A stretch of DNA of 40,914 nt from a virus. Both the position numbers and the translations under genes were made by a program. Location of the stretch: the IMG/VR virus record IMGVR_UViG_3300000116_000052, positions 1 through 40,914 of that record, one strand, 5' to 3'. The stretch's first letter is position 1. The number at the start of each line of letters is the position of its first letter. Shown here piece after piece: positions 2,824 to 34,631 of this stretch. Below the pieces are notes generated by a model. It worked only from the letters and a program-made list of their open reading frames with translations, was not told where the DNA came from and did not search any database.

Positions 2824-3465
2824 TCAGTTCATTAATCTTTTAAATTGTTCTTTTAGAGTTTCACCTCTCCAATTTTTACTTTCTTCAAATGCTCCAGATG
2901 CTGATTCTCTTTCAATAGAACTATCTCCTGCTGCTGCATCACTAACATCAAATTCTACATTATCTTCTTCTCTTACATATTCTGTGTTAACTGACATAAA
3001 CTCATCAAATTCATCAAGTATATCATCAGTATCAGCTGCATTTATAATATCTTCATAGTGTGTATTAATAAAAGATTTAGCTATATCAGCATCTACACCT
3101 CTTTTACCTACAATAAGTTTTATTATCATTCCTTCTACTTCTTCTTTATCATCATAAGGATCTAATCTATAATCTATATTTTCTTTTTTCATATCTTTAA
3201 ATTCTTCATCGTAATCAATTGCTTTATCTAACCTTTTTTTCTGGAACTTATCATGATATTTTTTATCCTCTTTATCGATTGCTTTATCTTCATTTGTATA
3301 ATAGTCGTGGTCTATCCTTATATCACCGGGATCATCATGCATTTCTTCTTTTTCTTTATCTAACATCATTTTAATTAATGATATTTTATCTTTATCATCT
3401 TGAGTTAGTCTATCCATTGCTTGAGCTCTATCAAATTCTTTATCTTTATCTCTTCTTTTATCCAT
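2824..3465 (-). CDS. Hypothetical highly charged protein, 213 aa
   Basis: The protein is extremely rich in Asp, Glu and Lys, especially in its first 100 residues, with no membrane segment or cysteine. This suggests an extended or helical protein. It is the third gene in a run with 3611-4294 and 3468-3611, all under the late-type motif at 4303-4318. Charged, helical proteins of this kind occur among prohead-core and internal head proteins of T4-like phages, but I see no specific motif, so that is only a possibility. Confidence 0.65.
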   Translation of the reverse strand: MDKRRDKDKEFDRAQAMDRLTQDDKDKISLIKMMLDKEKEEMHDDPGDIRIDHDYYTNEDKAIDKEDKKYHDKFQKKRLDKAIDYDEEFKDMKKENIDYRLDPYDDKEEVEGMIIKLIVGKRGVDADIAKSFINTHYEDIINAADTDDILDEFDEFMSVNTEYVREEDNVEFDVSDAAAGDSSIERESASGAFEESKNWRGETLKEQFKRLMN

Positions 3466-7782: not shown

Positions 7783-10700
7783 TTATTGTTTAATTATTTT
7801 ATTTATAAATCTTTTTTCTTGATAAATTATTATCACGTGATAAATACCAGAAGGAAAATTATTCATATCAATTCTTTTAATATTTTTCTCTTTTAATATT
7901 AATTCTCCTGTTATATTATACAATTCTACTTCAATATTTAAACGAGTATCAATGTTTACTATGTCTTGTGCTGGGTTAGGATAAACTCTTATACCTAATG
8001 TTGATAAATCTTCAAGTGAAGTAGGCCAACCTAACTCACAATAATTATACATTGATTGACAATTTACATCCCAATCATTTGTACAACAATAATTATCAAC
8101 ATCAATTACCCAAGCATAACATCCATCATTTAACCAATAAGGTATACCAGGTCCTCCATAACAACCAGCATCATATAAACAAGCTGTTGTATCTGAAACA
8201 TTTGCTGTAGGATCATAATTATAAGCAGCTACGTCAGTACAACCTGAAATTGGTGTAACACACGACCCATCATCAAAACAAGCATCTGAATCATAATTTA
8301 CTGCTGTTGGGTCAGTACAACCTCCTATATAACAACAAGAATTATCTAATGTGTTTGCTAATAAATTAAAATTAAGTGCTGTGTTATCAGTACAACCATA
8401 AATAAATGGAATGCAAGTTGCATTATCAGTATTTGCTAATGGGTCAAAATTAAACATAGTGGAATCAGTACAACCATATATTACAGGGATACATGAACCA
8501 TTATCTGTGTTAGCTGCAGGATTATAATTAAATGCCATTACATCCATACAACCATATATAAATGGTATACAACTATTATCATCTGTATTTGCTAGAGGGT
8601 CATAGTTAAAGGCATTAGGATCTGTACAACCATATATCGGGTAAATACAACCTACATTTGTGTTTGCTAATGGGTCATAATTATAAGCTGTTGAATCTGT
8701 GCATCCATAAATGTATGGTACGCATGAACCATCATCTACATTAGCATTTATGTTAAAATTAAAAGCATTTGGGTCAGTACAACCTAAAATTGGATAAATA
8801 CAACCTATATTTGTATTTGCTGATAAATCGTAATTAAGTGCAGTAGGATCTGTACAACCTAAAACTACAGGGACACATGAACCATCATCAGTATTTGCGT
8901 TAGGATCATAGTTAAAAGCACTTGGATCTGTACAACCTAAAATTGGGTAGATACAACCTATATTTACATTTGCTAACGAATCATAGTTTAAAGCTGTAGG
9001 GTCAGTACAACCTAAAACCTCAGGTACACATGAACCATCATCTGTGTTTGCATTTACATTAAAATTAAATGCAGTAGGATCTGTACAACCTAAAACAATA
9101 GGAATACATGAACCATTATTTGTATTAGCTAAAATATCATAGTTAAAAGCTAAAGGATCTGTACAACCAAATATTATTGGAATGCAACTTCCATCATCTG
9201 TATTTGCTGCTGGGTTGTAATTAAATTGTGTATCATCCATACAACCTAATATTACAGGTATACAAGATAAAGGATCATTTGTATTTGCTGTAGGGTTAAA
9301 ATTAAATGCAGTTGAATCCATGCAACCTATTATTATAGGTTCACACGAACCATCATCTATATTTGCTAATGAGTCATAATTAAAAGCTAAATTATTTGTA
9401 CAACCTAAAATAATTGGAGTACAAGTATCAGGCATATTAGCTAAACTATCATAATTTAATGCTGTAGGATCCATACAACCTAAAACTCCAGGTGTACAAT
9501 AATTCCCACAATAAGGTACATTATTATATCTATAGGGAAATTGTAACATAGGATCTGTCCAAGGATTTGTTCCACCAGATAGTGTAGTATCACCTTCAGG
9601 ACCTATTAAAAAGAATCCACATTGGTTAGCTGTTGTAGATGAATTACCAGGTGCAAAAAACATTAATTCAACTGGGCTTAAAGCACTTAAAGTAATTGTA
9701 AATGATTCTGAGTAACCATCGTTAGGACCCATCATAAAAGGACCTAATATTGTGGTATCTTGTAATATACCAACCCACGCTCCAAACCATCCATCTTCTG
9801 CTTCATCTGTAATTACTAAAGTATAATCACAACTAGGAATTATATCCATTGTATTTGCTAATGGATCGTAATCAGGTGAAGTTGGATCTACACAACCAAT
9901 TGCTACAGGAGTCAAACAAGAACCATCATCTGTATTAGCTTGTGGATCGTATTCTGTAAATCCTAAAGTAGTACATCCTAAAATAATATTAGGTGTACAA
10001 GGAGCTACAGTATAAATTACAGAAGTATCATTTCCAAAATTTGCATTACCTGGTAATATAGATAATAAAGTATCTCCACACAAGGTTTGAACTAATACTG
10101 TTCCATCAACTCCTCCATAACAAGAACCACATAAACCATCACCAAAAGAATCAAATAAAGTAAATTCAATTACAGTACCATTTGGTACACATATTTCTGA
10201 TATTACAGGTACTCCTGTTATAGTATAAGAAGGGGAAGTTGCTAATACTGTACCTGTTGTATCTGCAATTTCCCAAGAAGTTTCTCCAGCATAAGTATCT
10301 GGTGTAAGTGTTATTATAATATTAGATTCTCCACTTGAACAATTTGCAGGAGGGGCTTGACATGAACCATCATCTGAATTAGCCCAAGGGTTGTAATTTA
10401 AAGCTGAAGGATCAGTACAACCTGGTATACATTCTCCTGTTGTTATTATTAAAGTATCTGTTAAACTTGAATCAGCTAACATTCCTAAAAAATAATAAGT
10501 AGTATTTGGCTGATTATTATTAAATAAAACTCCTGTATTTGACCAATTTGTAGGATAAGGATTCCACTGTGTACCTAAACTATAAAGAGATGTTGTTCTT
10601 GTATAATAAGCCATTCTACAACTAGGATTAGGCATATTACTCCAATGATACCAAACTTTATTTCCACCTAAATCACAAAAATTTTCTACCCAAAGAGTAT

Positions 10701-11187
10701 CTAATCCATTACAAGATGGATAAGTACATAAAAGTGGATTAGAAAAATATGCAGTTGAATCATAATTAGAAGCATTAGGATCCATACAACCCCCCATAGG
10801 AGGAGCACAAGGAGCAATAGTTAATGTTTGTACTAAACTATCTCCAAAATTCCCTGCAACATACATAATTGTATCTTGACATGAATTGCTAATCATAAAC
10901 CACCCATCAGTACCACCCCATTGAGATGAACCTAACCCATCACCAAAAGAATCATATATACTCGCAATAATAGTTCCACCAAGTTGAACGATAGTATCAT
11001 ATAGAGTATTAGGTAGCATATTGCTATCATTTTCTATAATAATAGGTGAGCCACCTGGAGGTGTAATATTCCAACTTGTTTCAGAAGGATAATTATCTGT
11101 CATTAATTGGATATGAATCCAAGAATTTTGTGTATAACCTAAAAAAGGTATTAAAATTATTAATAATAATAACTGTAGTTTTTTCAT
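7783..11187 (-). CDS. T9SS cargo: secreted Cys-rich repeat protein with type A sorting domain
   Basis: The 1134-residue protein has a Sec signal peptide (MKKLQLLLLIILIPFLGYTQ). Its N-terminal half contains beta-rich modules with the DSFGDGL motif (twice) and a related EDGWFG module. Next come 21 copies in total of a 20-26-residue repeat, GC(T/M)DPxAxNYDPxANTDDGSC, 17 of them in one continuous block (about residues 569-1007). A CC-x4-WD-x2-C module precedes a typical type IX sorting domain: VYPNPAQDIVNI near 1065, then LYNITGELI, MNNFPSGIYHV and a lysine-rich end. In Bacteroidota this C-terminal domain sends proteins across the outer membrane through T9SS. The DDG motifs hint at calcium binding. 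The gene is flanked by other exported-protein genes at gaps of 3 and 12 bases. Finding it between phage genes is very unusual. Confidence 0.9.
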   Translation of the reverse strand: MKKLQLLLLIILIPFLGYTQNSWIHIQLMTDNYPSETSWNITPPGGSPIIIENDSNMLPNTLYDTIVQLGGTIIASIYDSFGDGLGSSQWGGTDGWFMISNSCQDTIMYVAGNFGDSLVQTLTIAPCAPPMGGCMDPNASNYDSTAYFSNPLLCTYPSCNGLDTLWVENFCDLGGNKVWYHWSNMPNPSCRMAYYTRTTSLYSLGTQWNPYPTNWSNTGVLFNNNQPNTTYYFLGMLADSSLTDTLIITTGECIPGCTDPSALNYNPWANSDDGSCQAPPANCSSGESNIIITLTPDTYAGETSWEIADTTGTVLATSPSYTITGVPVISEICVPNGTVIEFTLFDSFGDGLCGSCYGGVDGTVLVQTLCGDTLLSILPGNANFGNDTSVIYTVAPCTPNIILGCTTLGFTEYDPQANTDDGSCLTPVAIGCVDPTSPDYDPLANTMDIIPSCDYTLVITDEAEDGWFGAWVGILQDTTILGPFMMGPNDGYSESFTITLSALSPVELMFFAPGNSSTTANQCGFFLIGPEGDTTLSGGTNPWTDPMLQFPYRYNNVPYCGNYCTPGVLGCMDPTALNYDSLANMPDTCTPIILGCTNNLAFNYDSLANIDDGSCEPIIIGCMDSTAFNFNPTANTNDPLSCIPVILGCMDDTQFNYNPAANTDDGSCIPIIFGCTDPLAFNYDILANTNNGSCIPIVLGCTDPTAFNFNVNANTDDGSCVPEVLGCTDPTALNYDSLANVNIGCIYPILGCTDPSAFNYDPNANTDDGSCVPVVLGCTDPTALNYDLSANTNIGCIYPILGCTDPNAFNFNINANVDDGSCVPYIYGCTDSTAYNYDPLANTNVGCIYPIYGCTDPNAFNYDPLANTDDNSCIPFIYGCMDVMAFNYNPAANTDNGSCIPVIYGCTDSTMFNFDPLANTDNATCIPFIYGCTDNTALNFNLLANTLDNSCCYIGGCTDPTAVNYDSDACFDDGSCVTPISGCTDVAAYNYDPTANVSDTTACLYDAGCYGGPGIPYWLNDGCYAWVIDVDNYCCTNDWDVNCQSMYNYCELGWPTSLEDLSTLGIRVYPNPAQDIVNIDTRLNIEVELYNITGELILKEKNIKRIDMNNFPSGIYHVIIIYQEKRFINKIIKQ
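8165..9482 (-). repeat. Tandem coding repeats GCTDPxAxNYDPxANTDDGSC (17 contiguous units)
   Basis: In-frame units of about 60-78 bases, each encoding two cysteines and an acidic DDGSC-type loop. Units differ at many positions, and some carry a shortened NxGCIYPI end (units 11, 13 and 15 alternate with full ones), which suggests duplication of two-unit blocks. They lie inside the T9SS cargo gene, and four further isolated copies lie nearer its N-terminus. Confidence 0.9.
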
Positions 11188-28162: not shown

Positions 28163-28178
28163 GTTTATTATAAATATT
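28163..28178 (-). promoter_or_regulatory. Candidate late promoter motif AATATTTATAATAAAC
   Basis: A close variant of the late-type motif, overlapping the stop codon of the tape-measure gene (28177-28179) and lying 24 bases upstream of the ATG at 28138. Confidence 0.5.
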
Positions 28179-30600
28179 ATCCCATATTAGAAGTTGCAAG
28201 TACTAACGATCTTCCTACTTTATTTCCATCCATATAAACATCACCTCCATCTTTTACTGCTACTATTAATTCTTTTAATAAAGTAACAACTTCATTTTCA
28301 GTTGGAGCAGTTGTAGTTGCTGCAATATTAGAAGGTAAAGGAACATTACTACCATTAATAGCAGCATTCGATGAGATTGTATCTGATGATTGTCCTAATA
28401 AACCAAATGATAAACCATTTAAAGCACTAGATCCTGCATTTTTAAATTTATCTCCTAATGATGCATCTTTATCTGCATTAAATCCTTTAAAACCATCAAA
28501 TAAAGCCATTCCAATTGCTAAAGGTGCTGCTACTTTACCAAGTACTCCTTTTGCTAATTTACCTGCTCCTTTTAGCATACCTTTTCCTTTTGGAAATTTT
28601 ATGCCACCTAATCCTCCACCTTCTCCTCCTCCTGTAACTTTACTTAGTAAACTACTCATTAATCCACCTTCTGACATTATTACATGCATTGGGTTACTAG
28701 CTGATCCTAACTTTCCACCTCCTACAACTTTTTTAAGTAATGATCCTCCAACAATAGCTCCAAGGCCTAGCCCAAGTGCTGATTTTGGAAAATCTGCTAC
28801 AAATCCTACTATACTTTTTAATACACCTGCTATTGAAGATAACATACCCTTAAAACCTTCATTATTAACTAATGAACTAAATGCTGATGCTACTTTTTCG
28901 GCTAAAGGAGCTAAAGAATTTTGAAAAAGTTCTTTTGCATTTTCTAATTGTCTTTTAGTTGCTTCTGCCGATTTTCCTTCTGCTATTGTAGTTTCTAATC
29001 CTTCTTTTGCTATTTTAGCTAATGCTTCTTCTTCAGTGTAATTTAATGCCTTTAATCTAATTACTTCTTTTTCAGCATTTTTTCTATCTTCAGCACCAAA
29101 ATGAGATAATTTATTTTGGAGTTGTTGAGTTTGGTTCATTTCGTGCATTTCATCTACACTTATACCCAAAGTTTTTGCTAAAGCTTGTTGTGCAATTTTG
29201 TTACCTTTAGTAGCTTCATAATTTTCAGAAAGAATTCTATTCATTTCTTTTGCTACTGTAGTTTCATCTCCAGTTAATGAAGCAGATCTTAATTTTTCTA
29301 AATTAAGATTTTTACCTAATAACAACTCAGCTTCCATTTCATTAGCAATAGAAGATTCAAAATCTAAAGTAGCTTCACCAGCAGCAGCTATTTGATCTAT
29401 GGTCATTCCTAATCTTTTTGCTTCAAATGCTGCTTTTGCTAATGCTTGTGGATTATTACCTATATTAGCCATTGCAGTTGCTGATGCTCCTGCAACTTCA
29501 TTTAATACATCATTTAAACTAACTGAGGAAGAATTTGATATATTTAATCCTTCTACTATTCCTCCAATACTATCCCCTACGGTATCAAAACTTTGTCCTG
29601 ATAATGTTGAAATTTTAAATAATCCCTGAGTAGCTTCTTCACTTAAACCTAAAAAATGTGAATATTCTTGATATGATTTAACTTGTTTTTCTGATAGCAT
29701 TACTTGTGTTCCAGCAACTGCATTCATTCCTTCTAATGCTTTTTTAGCTTCTTCAAAATTTAAAAATAAACCATCAGTACCAGTCGTCATACTTTTTAAA
29801 TTTTCAACTACAGCCCCACTAGATCTACCCATTCCTAAAAAGGATTTTCCTATATCTGCTGTTTTTTGATTAAATTTCTGACCTAAGGATAATAATGATT
29901 GAAAGCCTTTTACTAAAAGACCTATCATTGCTACAGGTGATGTTAAAAAATTTAAAAAACTTTTACCTAATGATGCTAAACCAGCACCTAATACTTTAAA
30001 TTGATTAGATAATCCTCCAGTTACATCTACTACCCCTTTAGCTGCTGCCTCAGCATTATCAAAAGTATCCGTTAAAGCTCCTAGTCCTAAGTTACCTGCT
30101 AGTGATTTAAGACCACCTAAAATAACTCCAGTAGCACCCATTTGTTTGTTAAACTTTTGGGATAAACTTACCTGTTCTTGTAAACCTTTTTCAAATTCAT
30201 TATTATAACTTTCTAACTGAGTTAATTGTGTTTTTAATGCAGCTTCTTTTTTTGCTGAAAGTTTAACATCAGATCGATTAAGCATTTCAATCTGAGTTTT
30301 AATTAGTGCTATTTTAGCTTGTCTTTGTTGAATAAGTTTAGCAGCATCAGCTTGTCTAAATGCTCCTTCAGCTGCTTTACTATTAGCATTTGCTAAATCT
30401 TTTGATACTTTAGCTAGTGAATTTAGGGATGATGTAAGATCTTTAACTACTGCTTTAGCTACATTATCAGTTGAAGAAAGAGCTTCTTTAAATATATCAC
30501 CTACTTTATCAGCAATATTTCTTAAAGCATCCTCAACAACTACAGCTGTTTCTTTTGCACTCTTTTCTGCATCTATTTGAGCTTTGCTCTTTTTAACCAT
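28177..30600 (-). CDS. Tail tape measure protein
   Basis: An 807-residue protein with an alpha-helical N-terminus rich in Ala, Lys and Gln (about 1-160), glycine-rich hydrophobic segments (for example VAMIGLLVKGFQSLLSLG near 220 and SALGLGLGAIVGGSLL near 605), and repeated helices. This is the usual profile of tape measure proteins, which set tail length and are ejected ahead of the DNA. Its place after tube and gp26-like/second-frame genes and before hub genes fits T4 gp29 and other tailed phages. A late-type motif lies 6 bases before its ATG. Confidence 0.8.
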   Translation of the reverse strand: MVKKSKAQIDAEKSAKETAVVVEDALRNIADKVGDIFKEALSSTDNVAKAVVKDLTSSLNSLAKVSKDLANANSKAAEGAFRQADAAKLIQQRQAKIALIKTQIEMLNRSDVKLSAKKEAALKTQLTQLESYNNEFEKGLQEQVSLSQKFNKQMGATGVILGGLKSLAGNLGLGALTDTFDNAEAAAKGVVDVTGGLSNQFKVLGAGLASLGKSFLNFLTSPVAMIGLLVKGFQSLLSLGQKFNQKTADIGKSFLGMGRSSGAVVENLKSMTTGTDGLFLNFEEAKKALEGMNAVAGTQVMLSEKQVKSYQEYSHFLGLSEEATQGLFKISTLSGQSFDTVGDSIGGIVEGLNISNSSSVSLNDVLNEVAGASATAMANIGNNPQALAKAAFEAKRLGMTIDQIAAAGEATLDFESSIANEMEAELLLGKNLNLEKLRSASLTGDETTVAKEMNRILSENYEATKGNKIAQQALAKTLGISVDEMHEMNQTQQLQNKLSHFGAEDRKNAEKEVIRLKALNYTEEEALAKIAKEGLETTIAEGKSAEATKRQLENAKELFQNSLAPLAEKVASAFSSLVNNEGFKGMLSSIAGVLKSIVGFVADFPKSALGLGLGAIVGGSLLKKVVGGGKLGSASNPMHVIMSEGGLMSSLLSKVTGGGEGGGLGGIKFPKGKGMLKGAGKLAKGVLGKVAAPLAIGMALFDGFKGFNADKDASLGDKFKNAGSSALNGLSFGLLGQSSDTISSNAAINGSNVPLPSNIAATTTAPTENEVVTLLKELIVAVKDGGDVYMDGNKVGRSLVLATSNMG

Positions 30601-30631: not shown

Positions 30632-30919
30632 CTATTTTCTCGATGCTTTAGTAACATAAGTTGGAGGTGAAACTGTTCTTTTAGGAGGTAGTTTTGATTT
30701 ATTAGGATTAGATAAATCTATATCATTTTTATTTTTAGGTTTACGAGCTTCTGCTTGTTGTTTATAAAATTCATCTAATTTTTTAAATGTAAAATTACGT
30801 AACCATATAGGCATGTTATATATGGTGTCCCAATCATAGCCTCCCTTACCATTAAAAACTATTTCATGAATTTGTGAAAAAATATTACTTCTATATTGAG
30901 CTGCTTCAGTTGGCGTCAG
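30632..30919 (-). CDS. Small baseplate-assembly-type protein; frame opens upstream of its only ATG
   Basis: The visible ATG at 30814 gives only 60 residues (MPIWLRNFTFKK...). The frame is open upstream for 35 more codons, encoding TPTEAAQYRSNIF, IHEIVFNGKGGYDWDTIYN and then MPIWLR. This resembles the contiguous small protein found beside gp26 in other T4-like phages, as I recall. The only in-frame stop upstream is a TAA directly before nine T's, and no ATG lies in between. Expression therefore needs a shift from the overlapping gp26-like frame on the T run, or a start at the CTG at 30919 (used here for the boundary). The position directly before the tape measure matches tail-assembly chaperone genes of other phages, where frameshifting is common. 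Confidence 0.65.
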   Translation of the reverse strand: MTPTEAAQYRSNIFSQIHEIVFNGKGGYDWDTIYNMPIWLRNFTFKKLDEFYKQQAEARKPKNKNDIDLSNPNKSKLPPKRTVSPPTYVTKASRK

Positions 30920-31652
30920 GGAAAAAAAAATTTAAAGAAATTGGTACATCTATTTCTTCAAGCTCATCAAACTCATTAGTAATCGTGGTTTTTAATTCTA
31001 TATCGGGTTGTATTTTTATTATATGATCCCTTAATGCTTTTGCATCTCGAGCTAAAAGATAAGTATCAACAAAATCTCTAACAGTTTTACCAGATGAATC
31101 ACCTTCTACTGAAGTAATTAAATATTTCATTCTTGTTGAAATTTCAGGAGATGCTCCTTTATTGATTTTTTGAATACCTTTAATTTCTGCTTCAATTTCT
31201 TTATCTAAACCATCAGTTAATAATCTAAATGTTAATTTTGTTCCTGAATGTGGTAATTCCCAATCAAATTCATTTTTTCCACCTTTAAATAAATCTTTAT
31301 CAATAGTTTTGTTTTCTAATAAACTTAAATCTACAGTATGTTCTTGACCATTATATCTAATCTTATAATCTTTACCATACCCTAATATACGTGAAGCAAT
31401 TAAGATAGCATTTTTATCACCAATTAATAAATCTTTAAGTTTAACATCAGTAATAATTAAGGATTGTAATAGTTTATCTAATACAATTCCTTTAGCTATA
31501 TAGTTTTGGTTAGTTAGAATATCTTCTTCTTTAGCTGTCATATATTTCATTTCAATCTTACCAGATTTTAATGGGTGATCTTTAGGATATAATAAACCTC
31601 TTGATGGTAATTCTACTTCTTCAGTAGGGAATTTAAATTTATTTTCAGACAT
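30906..31652 (-). CDS. Baseplate hub/assembly protein, T4 gp26-like
   Basis: The 248-residue protein has the N-terminus ELPSRGLLYPKDHPLKSG followed by IEMKYMTAKEEDIL, ASRILGYGKDY and a C-terminal ISLNFFFPDAN. These match my memory of the T4-type baseplate protein family (gp26 in cyanophage annotation), which helps assemble the hub. The end contains the nine-T run where the second frame opens. It has both a class 1 promoter-like site and a late-type motif variant upstream, an unusual combination that could permit expression in two phases. Confidence 0.75.
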   Translation of the reverse strand: MSENKFKFPTEEVELPSRGLLYPKDHPLKSGKIEMKYMTAKEEDILTNQNYIAKGIVLDKLLQSLIITDVKLKDLLIGDKNAILIASRILGYGKDYKIRYNGQEHTVDLSLLENKTIDKDLFKGGKNEFDWELPHSGTKLTFRLLTDGLDKEIEAEIKGIQKINKGASPEISTRMKYLITSVEGDSSGKTVRDFVDTYLLARDAKALRDHIIKIQPDIELKTTITNEFDELEEIDVPISLNFFFPDAN

Positions 31653-31751: not shown

Positions 31752-32240
31752 TTAGAAATTTAACACACAATAATCCATTCCTAATGTTAAAGAAATATTC
31801 ATTACTGTAGTATCATCATCCCAATTCATATCTCCAAATGATGCGTCTTTAATAAAAGCACCTTTAATAATCCATTCAGAAACTACATCTCCGACAGGAC
31901 CTAATACATCAATTGTTAGATCTTTTTTATAGAAATCAGAATAACCATCTCTACCAGTAACTGATTCATGGTGTAATCTTGTCCATTCCATTACTGCTTG
32001 AGCTCCTGAAGGAGTAATAGGGTCAAATAATTCCATTGTTAAATCATTCCATCTTAATTTACCTTTTACTTTTCTATAAGTGTTTATATGATTTAATATT
32101 ATTTCATCCTGCGCGAACCCCATTCCACTAACTCCCTTAATTATATACGATGGTATACCATCAACATACAATATAAATCGGTTAGCTACCTTTGGTTCAA
32201 ATGCTGTGAAAAATATTTCGTTAGGATCTAATACTGCCAT
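31752..32240 (-). CDS. Tail tube protein, T4 gp19-like
   Basis: The 162-residue length and the features PKVANRFILYVDGIPSYII, YRKVKGKLRWNDLTMEL and TVMNISLTLGMDYC fit the gp19 family, which stacks as hexameric rings to form the inner tail tube. The order sheath then tube matches T4 (gp18, gp19). A late-type motif lies 14 bases upstream, and a strong terminator follows, so it forms its own transcription unit. High expression is expected for a major virion protein. Confidence 0.9.
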   Translation of the reverse strand: MAVLDPNEIFFTAFEPKVANRFILYVDGIPSYIIKGVSGMGFAQDEIILNHINTYRKVKGKLRWNDLTMELFDPITPSGAQAVMEWTRLHHESVTGRDGYSDFYKKDLTIDVLGPVGDVVSEWIIKGAFIKDASFGDMNWDDDTTVMNISLTLGMDYCVLNF

Positions 32241-32285: not shown

Positions 32286-34631
32286 TTATGCTGGGAAAGT
32301 AGCTCCAGTTGGTAAAATGTTAAAGTCTAGGTAAATAAATTCTGCTGTTTTTGTTGGTTGTAAATAAACTGCACCAATTAATTCATTTCTATCAATTACA
32401 TCTGGTGTGTTATTTGAATTATCCATTACAACTTTAAATGCATATAAACCTTGTCTTTGTTGTACTGATTCTAAGTAAGGGTTAACTTGACTTAAGAATG
32501 TATTTCTTGTAGCTGCAGTATTTTGTTCAAATACTAATGTATCAGCGATTTGTGAAATATAATTTTTAAGTGTAATTAATAATCTTCTTACATTTACTCT
32601 ATCTAAAGCTGATGCTTTAGTTTGTAATGTTTTCTGTCCAAATACTACAATTCCTTGTCCTGGGAATGTTGCTATTGGGTTTACTTTTCCAGTATATAAA
32701 GTATCTCTATTAGTATTAGTTAATTTTCTTTCTGCTTGATTAACTGCTCCTAATCCTCCTCTATTAATACCTGCTGGGGCAAACCATGGTTCACCTGCTC
32801 TATCATTGTAAGCATAAACACCTGGTATCATTGTAGATGCTGGTACCCAAACTAATTCTCTTGAATCTGGATCTATTACTTGTAACCAAGGCCAATATGT
32901 AGCTACATATGAAGAATCAACTGAAGCTGCTCCACTTGTTACTTGTGTTATTGAAGAATTATAATTAACTAAATCACCCACAAATATTGCATCTCCTCTT
33001 GTTTCACAATTTGATTGAATAGTTGTCCAACCTGTTCCTGTAGTACCATTTGCTAATATTAAACCTGGTGCTGTTATGATGTTATATCTAAAATCATCTC
33101 TATTAGCTAATAAATTAATTCCTACAGTATAATCAGTTCCTGTTAAACCTTGAGAATCATTATTATCAATATCTTGATAAAACTTTGAAGGAGTTCCACT
33201 TCCTGTTATATCACCTATCCCATTTCCAAAGGTTCCATTTGAAGCAATTGGAATAGAACCTGTAAATTCTGCTTTAGGACTTCCATTATTATCAAAATAA
33301 TTTGGTGTTTTCTTTTTTACTTCTTTTACTCTTATATACCTTGAAGCATTTGGGAAAGATCCAGAAGTTTGTAGATAAACATCAGTTCCTGTTCCTCTTA
33401 CAGTTTGTTTTTGATCACCAATTACTTTTGAAATATAATTAGTTGCTAAAGGATCTAATGAAATATTTGAATAAGTTTCAACTACTTGTTTTGCTGTTGA
33501 TGTATCATTACCTTGTCTAAGTAATAATGAGAATACACCTGATGAAGTACTTGGGTTTGTTATTTCCCATCTAAAATTATCAGATGTTCCATTGGTTAAT
33601 GTACCATTAGCTCCTGTAGTTCCTGCACTATTCATTATATTACCGTCAGCTATTGTTTCTAATACAAAAGATTCAAAATTTACTATATCAGCAGCAGTTA
33701 AAGTTATTGTCAAATCATTGTCAGCTGCTGTTGTTGGGTATCCAAGAGATTGTGAAGTAACTGTTAATACATCTCCTACTGCGTATCCAGTTCCAGCACC
33801 ATCAACTGTTATTGATGTTGGTTCAACAAATAAACCTTTATCAGTTGCAGTATTTCCAATAGTAAATTCAGGATTTGTTCCCCCCGCAACAGTAGCTCCT
33901 AAAGATTCAGATGTAAAACTTAGTACTTCACCATTAAAAAATCCTGATCCTGTTGTAAGTGCTCCTGCATTATCTACAAATTGAATTGAAGTAAAAGCTG
34001 TTGCTGAAGCTACTACACATCTTGCTAAAGCACTTGTATTACCTAAACTTGAAATTACTGGTACGTCATTATAGGTAGCTGCAACCATACCTCCTCCTGC
34101 TGTTGTTTGTTCAGGAAGTATAGCGTTAAGTGTTCCATCTAATTTTCCAGCAGAACTAGTTGTTACAATATTCAATGTTAATCCAGTTCCTCCTGCTGGT
34201 AAAACTGAAGATGTTATTAATGTAGTTGAAGAAGATGATCCACTAATTCCTGTTCCTAAATTCCAACTTGAAAATAAATTAGTATTTAAATTAATAACAC
34301 CTGATTCTTCTGCACTTTGAATTATTGATGAAGTAGCTGGTGAGAAAGCTCCAGGTGTAGTTCTAGTTACTAATAATGAAGTTCCTCCATTTTGGAAATA
34401 ATTATAAGCAGAAATCGAAGTAAAATAAGTATACTGATTTGATCCACTTAAAAAAGTAGTTCCAAAATTAGCTTGATATTCTGAATAACTAGTTACTAAT
34501 TTAGGTATATTTTGTTGACCCTTTACAGCTGGTCCAATAATCGCAGCCCCAGCTTGTACTGGCTGTGATGTTATTTGTGATTGGTCGTTTTCTCTTGCTA
34601 AAACACCCGGTGATATTAATACTTCTGCCAT
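32286..34631 (-). CDS. Contractile tail sheath protein, T4 gp18-like
   Basis: The N-terminus SPGVLARENDQSQ and the C-terminal region (ALDRVNVRRLLITLKNYI, TLVFEQNTAATRNTFLSQVNPYLE and LQPTKTAEFIYLDF) are typical of the conserved sheath core of contractile tails. At 781 residues it is longer than T4 gp18 (659). The extra length lies in a Thr/Ser/Gly-rich middle (about 120-480), probably surface-exposed variable domains. Sheath subunits contract to drive the tube through the envelope. A late-type motif lies upstream. Confidence 0.92.
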   Translation of the reverse strand: MAEVLISPGVLARENDQSQITSQPVQAGAAIIGPAVKGQQNIPKLVTSYSEYQANFGTTFLSGSNQYTYFTSISAYNYFQNGGTSLLVTRTTPGAFSPATSSIIQSAEESGVINLNTNLFSSWNLGTGISGSSSSTTLITSSVLPAGGTGLTLNIVTTSSAGKLDGTLNAILPEQTTAGGGMVAATYNDVPVISSLGNTSALARCVVASATAFTSIQFVDNAGALTTGSGFFNGEVLSFTSESLGATVAGGTNPEFTIGNTATDKGLFVEPTSITVDGAGTGYAVGDVLTVTSQSLGYPTTAADNDLTITLTAADIVNFESFVLETIADGNIMNSAGTTGANGTLTNGTSDNFRWEITNPSTSSGVFSLLLRQGNDTSTAKQVVETYSNISLDPLATNYISKVIGDQKQTVRGTGTDVYLQTSGSFPNASRYIRVKEVKKKTPNYFDNNGSPKAEFTGSIPIASNGTFGNGIGDITGSGTPSKFYQDIDNNDSQGLTGTDYTVGINLLANRDDFRYNIITAPGLILANGTTGTGWTTIQSNCETRGDAIFVGDLVNYNSSITQVTSGAASVDSSYVATYWPWLQVIDPDSRELVWVPASTMIPGVYAYNDRAGEPWFAPAGINRGGLGAVNQAERKLTNTNRDTLYTGKVNPIATFPGQGIVVFGQKTLQTKASALDRVNVRRLLITLKNYISQIADTLVFEQNTAATRNTFLSQVNPYLESVQQRQGLYAFKVVMDNSNNTPDVIDRNELIGAVYLQPTKTAEFIYLDFNILPTGATFPA

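Follow-up and report, generated by a model that had tools for sequence, protein, structure and literature searches.

Chaperones of the lambda gpG/gpGT type are reportedly the subject of work by Xu, Hendrix and Duda in 2004. In lambda the gene stands before the tape measure gene, it gives a short product and a frameshifted long product, and the extension of the long product lacks a conserved start of its own. The tail assembly chaperone frameshifting of lambda-type phages has been reviewed (Atkins 2016, PMC5009743). Lambda and most others shift by -1, but -2 and +1 cases have also been published, and the arrangement has been called conserved "except T4" (PMC5009743). For the tail chaperone of the haloarchaeal myovirus HSTV-2, a shift described as very likely +1 is on record (PMC5009743).

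T4 gp26 and gp51 are members of one family (phrog_150, PF12322) and are encoded as separate genes. They resemble the short form and the long form of a frameshifted pair, respectively, and gp26 ends shortly past its FF motif (EFFELL), while gp51 continues beyond it. Both are listed as hub assembly chaperones, and gp51, which is not part of the virion, is essential (PMC3004832). That gene duplication took the place of frameshifting in T4 is an idea already published. The tail assembly chaperones of T4-like phages were reportedly identified by Vladimirov, Gautam and Davidson in 2022. Passages citing that work state that in some T4-like phages a short gene is accompanied by a fused long one (the PRFect paper, PMC10885494) and refer to it for polyT -1 signals within T4-like TAC-N genes (the phage Adele paper, PMC12846349).

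Another system for comparison is bacterial prfB (RF2), in which the shift codons are CUU_U and, rarely, UUU_U (PMC5009743), the A site holds a stop codon, and an SD-like element lies just upstream. Poor frameshifting has been reported at the prfB site of Flavobacterium johnsoniae (PMC12421855).

A tail assembly chaperone gene of the T4 gp26/gp51 family in a marine phage is very probably expressed by programmed +1 ribosomal frameshifting. The sequence studied is positions 1-40,914 of the IMG/VR virus IMGVR_UViG_3300000116_000052, and this whole stretch of 40,914 nt, with a GC content of 29-30%, is referred to as the window.

The locus and its reading frames

The gp26-like gene is found between the tail tube gene and the putative tape measure gene (Table 1), as are genes of the G/GT type. 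The tape measure candidate has no family match in Pfam or phrog searches. Flavobacterium phage immuto has the same gene order, and its gene at this place is annotated as tail tape measure. The preliminary description had proposed a tail-assembly-chaperone pair ahead of the tape measure gene, and both the position and the matches to the gp26/gp51 family agree with this. No tRNA genes were found in the window. In Rhodothermus phage RM378 (L086, 2995-4355) the neighbor order is unusual, as the tail tube gene follows the chaperone gene on the opposite strand, but the +1 site TTT TTT TGG is kept. Elsewhere in the window, positions 7783-11187 (minus strand) encode a protein of 1134 aa that has numerous GCTDPxAxNYDPxANTDDGSC repeats and whose C-terminus by eye resembles a type IX secretion sorting domain. 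These features suggest a Bacteroidota host.

Table 1. Positions of the features of the chaperone locus and its neighbors in the window
Feature	Positions	Strand	Basis and remarks
0-frame gene, T4 gp26-like (phrog_150)	30906..31652	-	phrog match, fold prediction; 248 aa, TGA stop; predicted short chaperone form
Putative shift site AAT_TTT_TTT_TTC_CCT	30918..30932	-	Conserved site and variants among relatives
Nine-T run	30922..30930	-	Sequence
+1-frame extension, 96 codons then TAG	30632..30922	-	Codon-position bias, gp51 C-terminus profile match, helical fold; predicted C-terminal domain of long form
-1-frame TGA, two codons past the site	30916..30918	-	Sequence
ATG-initiated ORF (MPIWLR...)	30632..30814	-	The one gene callers would annotate; ATG unconserved
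Tail tube protein gene, upstream neighbor	31752..32240	-	PF06841 E=3.4e-5 (below curated cut-off); phrog_4542 E=1.7e-22
Putative tape measure gene, downstream neighbor	28177..30600	-	Position and size (807 aa)
Tail sheath gene, contractile tail	32286..34631	-	PF17482, PF04984

On the minus strand the 0 frame reads TTA AAT TTT TTT TTC CCT GAC GCC AAC TGA near the end of the gene, and the stop codon is at 30908-30906. The +1 frame is closed by TAA (30934-30932) immediately ahead of the T run (30930-30922), so the frame does open where it had first been placed, right after a TAA beside nine T's. Past the run it remains open until TAG at 30634-30632, with the product SLTPTEAAQYRSNIFSQIHEIVFNGKGGYDWDTIYNMPIWLRNFTFKK..., and its sole ATG before the end of the conserved core is at 30814. 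Across the site this downstream frame is +1, or equivalently -2, relative to the gp26-like frame. A -1 slip would bring translation to an immediate stop at the TGA in that frame. A run of nine T's carries little weight alone in such an AT-rich window (two were found against 12.7 expected, and T9 itself is not rare), and its significance comes from conservation.

Conservation of the frame relation

The +1 relation is present in 80 of the 80 nearest IMG/VR relatives. A second, more distant set of 80 also keeps it, with few exceptions or with contig ends inside the region. Clustering of the relatives at 80% identity gave 101 non-redundant sequences. The +1 frame stays open after the site in 100 of them (at least 59 codons unless the contig ends first; median 83 codons), while the -1 frame is open for just two codons in 71 of the 101. 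Cultured phages with the +1 relation are Flavobacterium immuto, Bacillus SP-15, Listeria LIS04, Streptococcus GXN1, Rhodothermus RM378, and Microcystis Mel-JY01, and Streptomyces phage BRock has it as well. Alignment of homologs, which had been proposed as a check, thus gives a conserved frame relation with a T run of varying length (T9, T8, T7, or broken). The initial comparison with other phages was right about the location, directly ahead of the putative tape measure gene, but the usual -1 shift does not apply, as 100 of the 101 relatives have +1; a -1 direction is not strictly defining for the G/GT type.

Site variants and direction of the probable shift

The site is variable in sequence but nearly always permits a +1 slip. 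The commonest form is TTT TTT TGG, found in 70 of the 101 sequences and followed by CCT in its full form. Next are TTT TTT TTC (7), TTT CTT TGG (6), TTC TTT TGG (5), TTT TTT TAC (4), and TTC TTT CGT (3), and the rest are single. By simple P-site pairing rules, re-pairing at +1 is possible at 100 of these 101 sites. The misfit is TTC TTC TGG in L117 (around 3140-3170), where the extension is in the -1 frame; this could be a change of direction or an assembly indel.

The same fused product could arise if RNA polymerase slipped at the T run and dropped one U, so that the ribosome would read a plain frame. The T9 of the window phage is a plausible slippage tract, and slippage may add to the effect of the frameshift there. 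In 73 of the 101 sequences, however, the T run reaches a maximum of 7, and in 16 (L117 among them) a maximum of only 3 or 4, with the same frame relation apart from L117, making this mechanism improbable as the explanation for the family. A slip backwards by two bases would reach the +1 frame too, with an additional Phe. At the window site UUU pairs perfectly again after such a slip, -2 re-pairing is allowed at 91 of the 101 sites by the same rules, and phage Mu uses a -2 shift (PMC5009743). Nine relatives, with TTC TTT TGG, TTC TTT CGT, or TTT CTA TTC, can re-pair at +1 but not at -2 and yet keep the frame relation, and a -2 shift is accordingly given little credence. These nine sites and the frequent short runs disfavor both alternatives as a general mechanism. 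The first proposal, that the gp26-like and small proteins are fused by a shift of +1 or -2 at the T run, is supported and can be narrowed to +1.

The codons around a +1 slip are also constrained. Of 94 second Phe codons, 93 are TTT (background 57-71%). The codon before the run ends in C in 48 of 54 two-fold codons, compared to 39% before Phe elsewhere (p=6e-14 in a binomial test that ignores relatedness, so that p-values are indicative only). Keeping T out of this position would avoid the -1-prone U_UUU_UUU. The shift codons CUU_U or UUU_U are those of prfB. In contrast to prfB, the A site holds a sense codon, mostly UGG, and the sites have no consistent SD-like element: such a sequence is found in 25 of the 101 relatives against a background of 11%, a weak enrichment. 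No convincing RNA structure was found as a stimulator, with a mean local folding z of about -0.7 compared to about -0.5 in a control region.

The extension and its start

Substitution patterns show that purifying selection acts on the extension in its own frame. From the 0-frame stop to the ATG, comparing 13 close relatives in pairs gave 303, 141, and 720 differences at +1-frame codon positions 1, 2, and 3. Given the excess at the third position, translation of this part in the +1 frame is most likely, in keeping with the early impression that coding sequence extends upstream of the only ATG of the small protein.

The small protein could instead be an independent gene, starting at CTG 30919 or by re-initiation at ATG 30814. 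Both codons are in frame, and annotations of related phages give only a short ATG-type stub. However, residues ahead of the ATG position are conserved among relatives, and the starts themselves are not. At the equivalent of CTG 30919, a CTG is kept by only 51 of 100 relatives (the others have CTA, CTT, CCC, CTC, or another codon), so the CTG start suggested at the outset finds no backing. Met is present at the equivalent of ATG 30814 in just 44 of the 89 relatives with a readable position, which removes a plain ATG start in homologs as an objection to frameshifting. The first 28 codons of the extension have no ATG, GTG, or TTG in 44 of 100 relatives. The ATG-initiated ORF is thus most likely not an independent gene, and such an origin of the small protein is very improbable. 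An overlapping downstream ORF in another frame, with a conserved shift site and without a conserved start, is the arrangement found in G/GT. In immuto (L082 3851-3961) and SP-15 (L084 3809-3928), extension stubs of 36-39 aa are annotated as hypothetical proteins.

A homopolymer sequencing or assembly error is hardly credible, although such runs are error-prone, since the same relation recurs, with different or interrupted runs, in nearly all of some 160 additional assemblies and cultured genomes. The T9 of the window and the T8 of one relative (L012) differ by a synonymous AAT/AAC change with no indel, so a sequencing artifact does not account for the frame relation. The concern that 8 or 10 T's would make one continuous frame is likewise answered by the T9, T8, T7, and broken runs, all of which are +1.

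Family identity and predicted structure

Profile comparisons place both parts of the product in the gp26/gp51 family. The 0-frame protein matches phrog_150 (E=2.9e-9). Pfam searches gave nothing useful for the chaperone or the extension themselves, including no match of the window 0-frame protein to PF12322, but the homologs in SP-15, RM378, LR756508, and GXN1 match PF12322 with E=1.5e-28 to 2.4e-9. Among phrogs the extension has only a marginal match, to the tail assembly chaperone phrog_32580 (E=0.018), and hmmscan found no match to phrog_634. A profile of the fused +1 products aligns with the T4 gp51 family across the junction (hhalign E=1.4e-6, probability 90%), and the extension alone aligns with the gp51 C-terminus (E=9.6e-6, probability 83%); these probabilities are moderate and count against frameshifting of a gp26/gp51-family gene. 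By these alignments the extension is homologous to the C-terminus of gp51 and belongs to the family. Phage P1 gp26 is an unrelated protein that shares the number.

Folds were predicted for the short form and the extension as separate chains. The short form has a pLDDT of 90.5, and a search of BFVD with its predicted fold matches T4-type baseplate hub proteins. Its best match in the PDB, the HK97 tail assembly chaperone, is non-significant (E=1.1). The extension is predicted to be helical, with a pLDDT of 82, and has no match in BFVD at E <= 0.001.

Probable mechanism and its distribution

The sequence comparisons establish the frame relation and its conservation, the variants of the site, selection on the extension in its frame, and the homology to gp51, whereas the frameshift event, its efficiency, and the chaperone function are inferred. 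Most ribosomes would read the 0 frame and stop at TGA, giving the short form of 248 aa. In the remainder, peptidyl-tRNA-Phe on UUU in the P site (30926-30924 or 30929-30927) would move +1 onto the overlapping UUU (UUU_U), and in relatives with CTT the slip would be at CUU_U instead. The shifted fraction would continue in the +1 frame and add a helical domain of 96 residues, giving a predicted fusion of 243 + 96 = 339 aa. If the pair works as lambda gpG/gpGT does, the short form would serve as a coat for the tape measure protein, with the extension bringing in tail tube subunits. The window phage would differ from lambda and most others in its +1 direction and its T4 gp26 family sequence, and from T4 in using one gene and a shift instead of two genes.

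Other members of the family have the extension in the opposite direction. In cyanophage S-PM2 and the jumbo phages Atu_ph07, Munch, PA5oct, and Kaldavass, it follows the same FF motif near the C-terminus but is in the -1 frame at U_UUU_UUC. The S-PM2 annotation labels part of its extension gp51. In all five the run comes after a T, a base that the +1 group avoids at this position, so that it largely separates the two groups. Among family members, L171, L173, L174, L175, L179, and L089 have a -1 extension at T TTT TTC, all with T before the run.

It seems reasonably likely that one family reaches a short and long pair by three routes: a +1 shift (typically at C_UUU_UUU_UGG), a -1 shift (at U_UUU_UUC), and duplicated genes (T4). 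Lineages could then switch direction by a few substitutions, and the +1 site would function with sense codons in place of a stop in the A site and without any consistent stimulator. A +1 branch of the T4 gp26/gp51 family appears to be undescribed in the open-access literature searched, where Vladimirov 2022 is represented by the papers citing it. Widespread T4-related phages would thereby join the frameshifting-chaperone scheme, in the unusual +1 direction, and a systematic mis-annotation would be corrected, as gene callers give only a stub of the long form. The sites also form a natural series for what makes a ribosome slip forward or back, in Bacteroidota and other hosts. Because frameshifting at the F. 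johnsoniae prfB site is reportedly poor, a working +1 site in phages of Bacteroidota would be informative.

Two of the relatives, L194 and L195, are on one contig of 305,838 bases (NHDW01000006.1), near both of its ends, and have the same 33% match with the same E-value. This contig, binned as Methylococcaceae, may be a phage genome that is circular and whose ends overlap.
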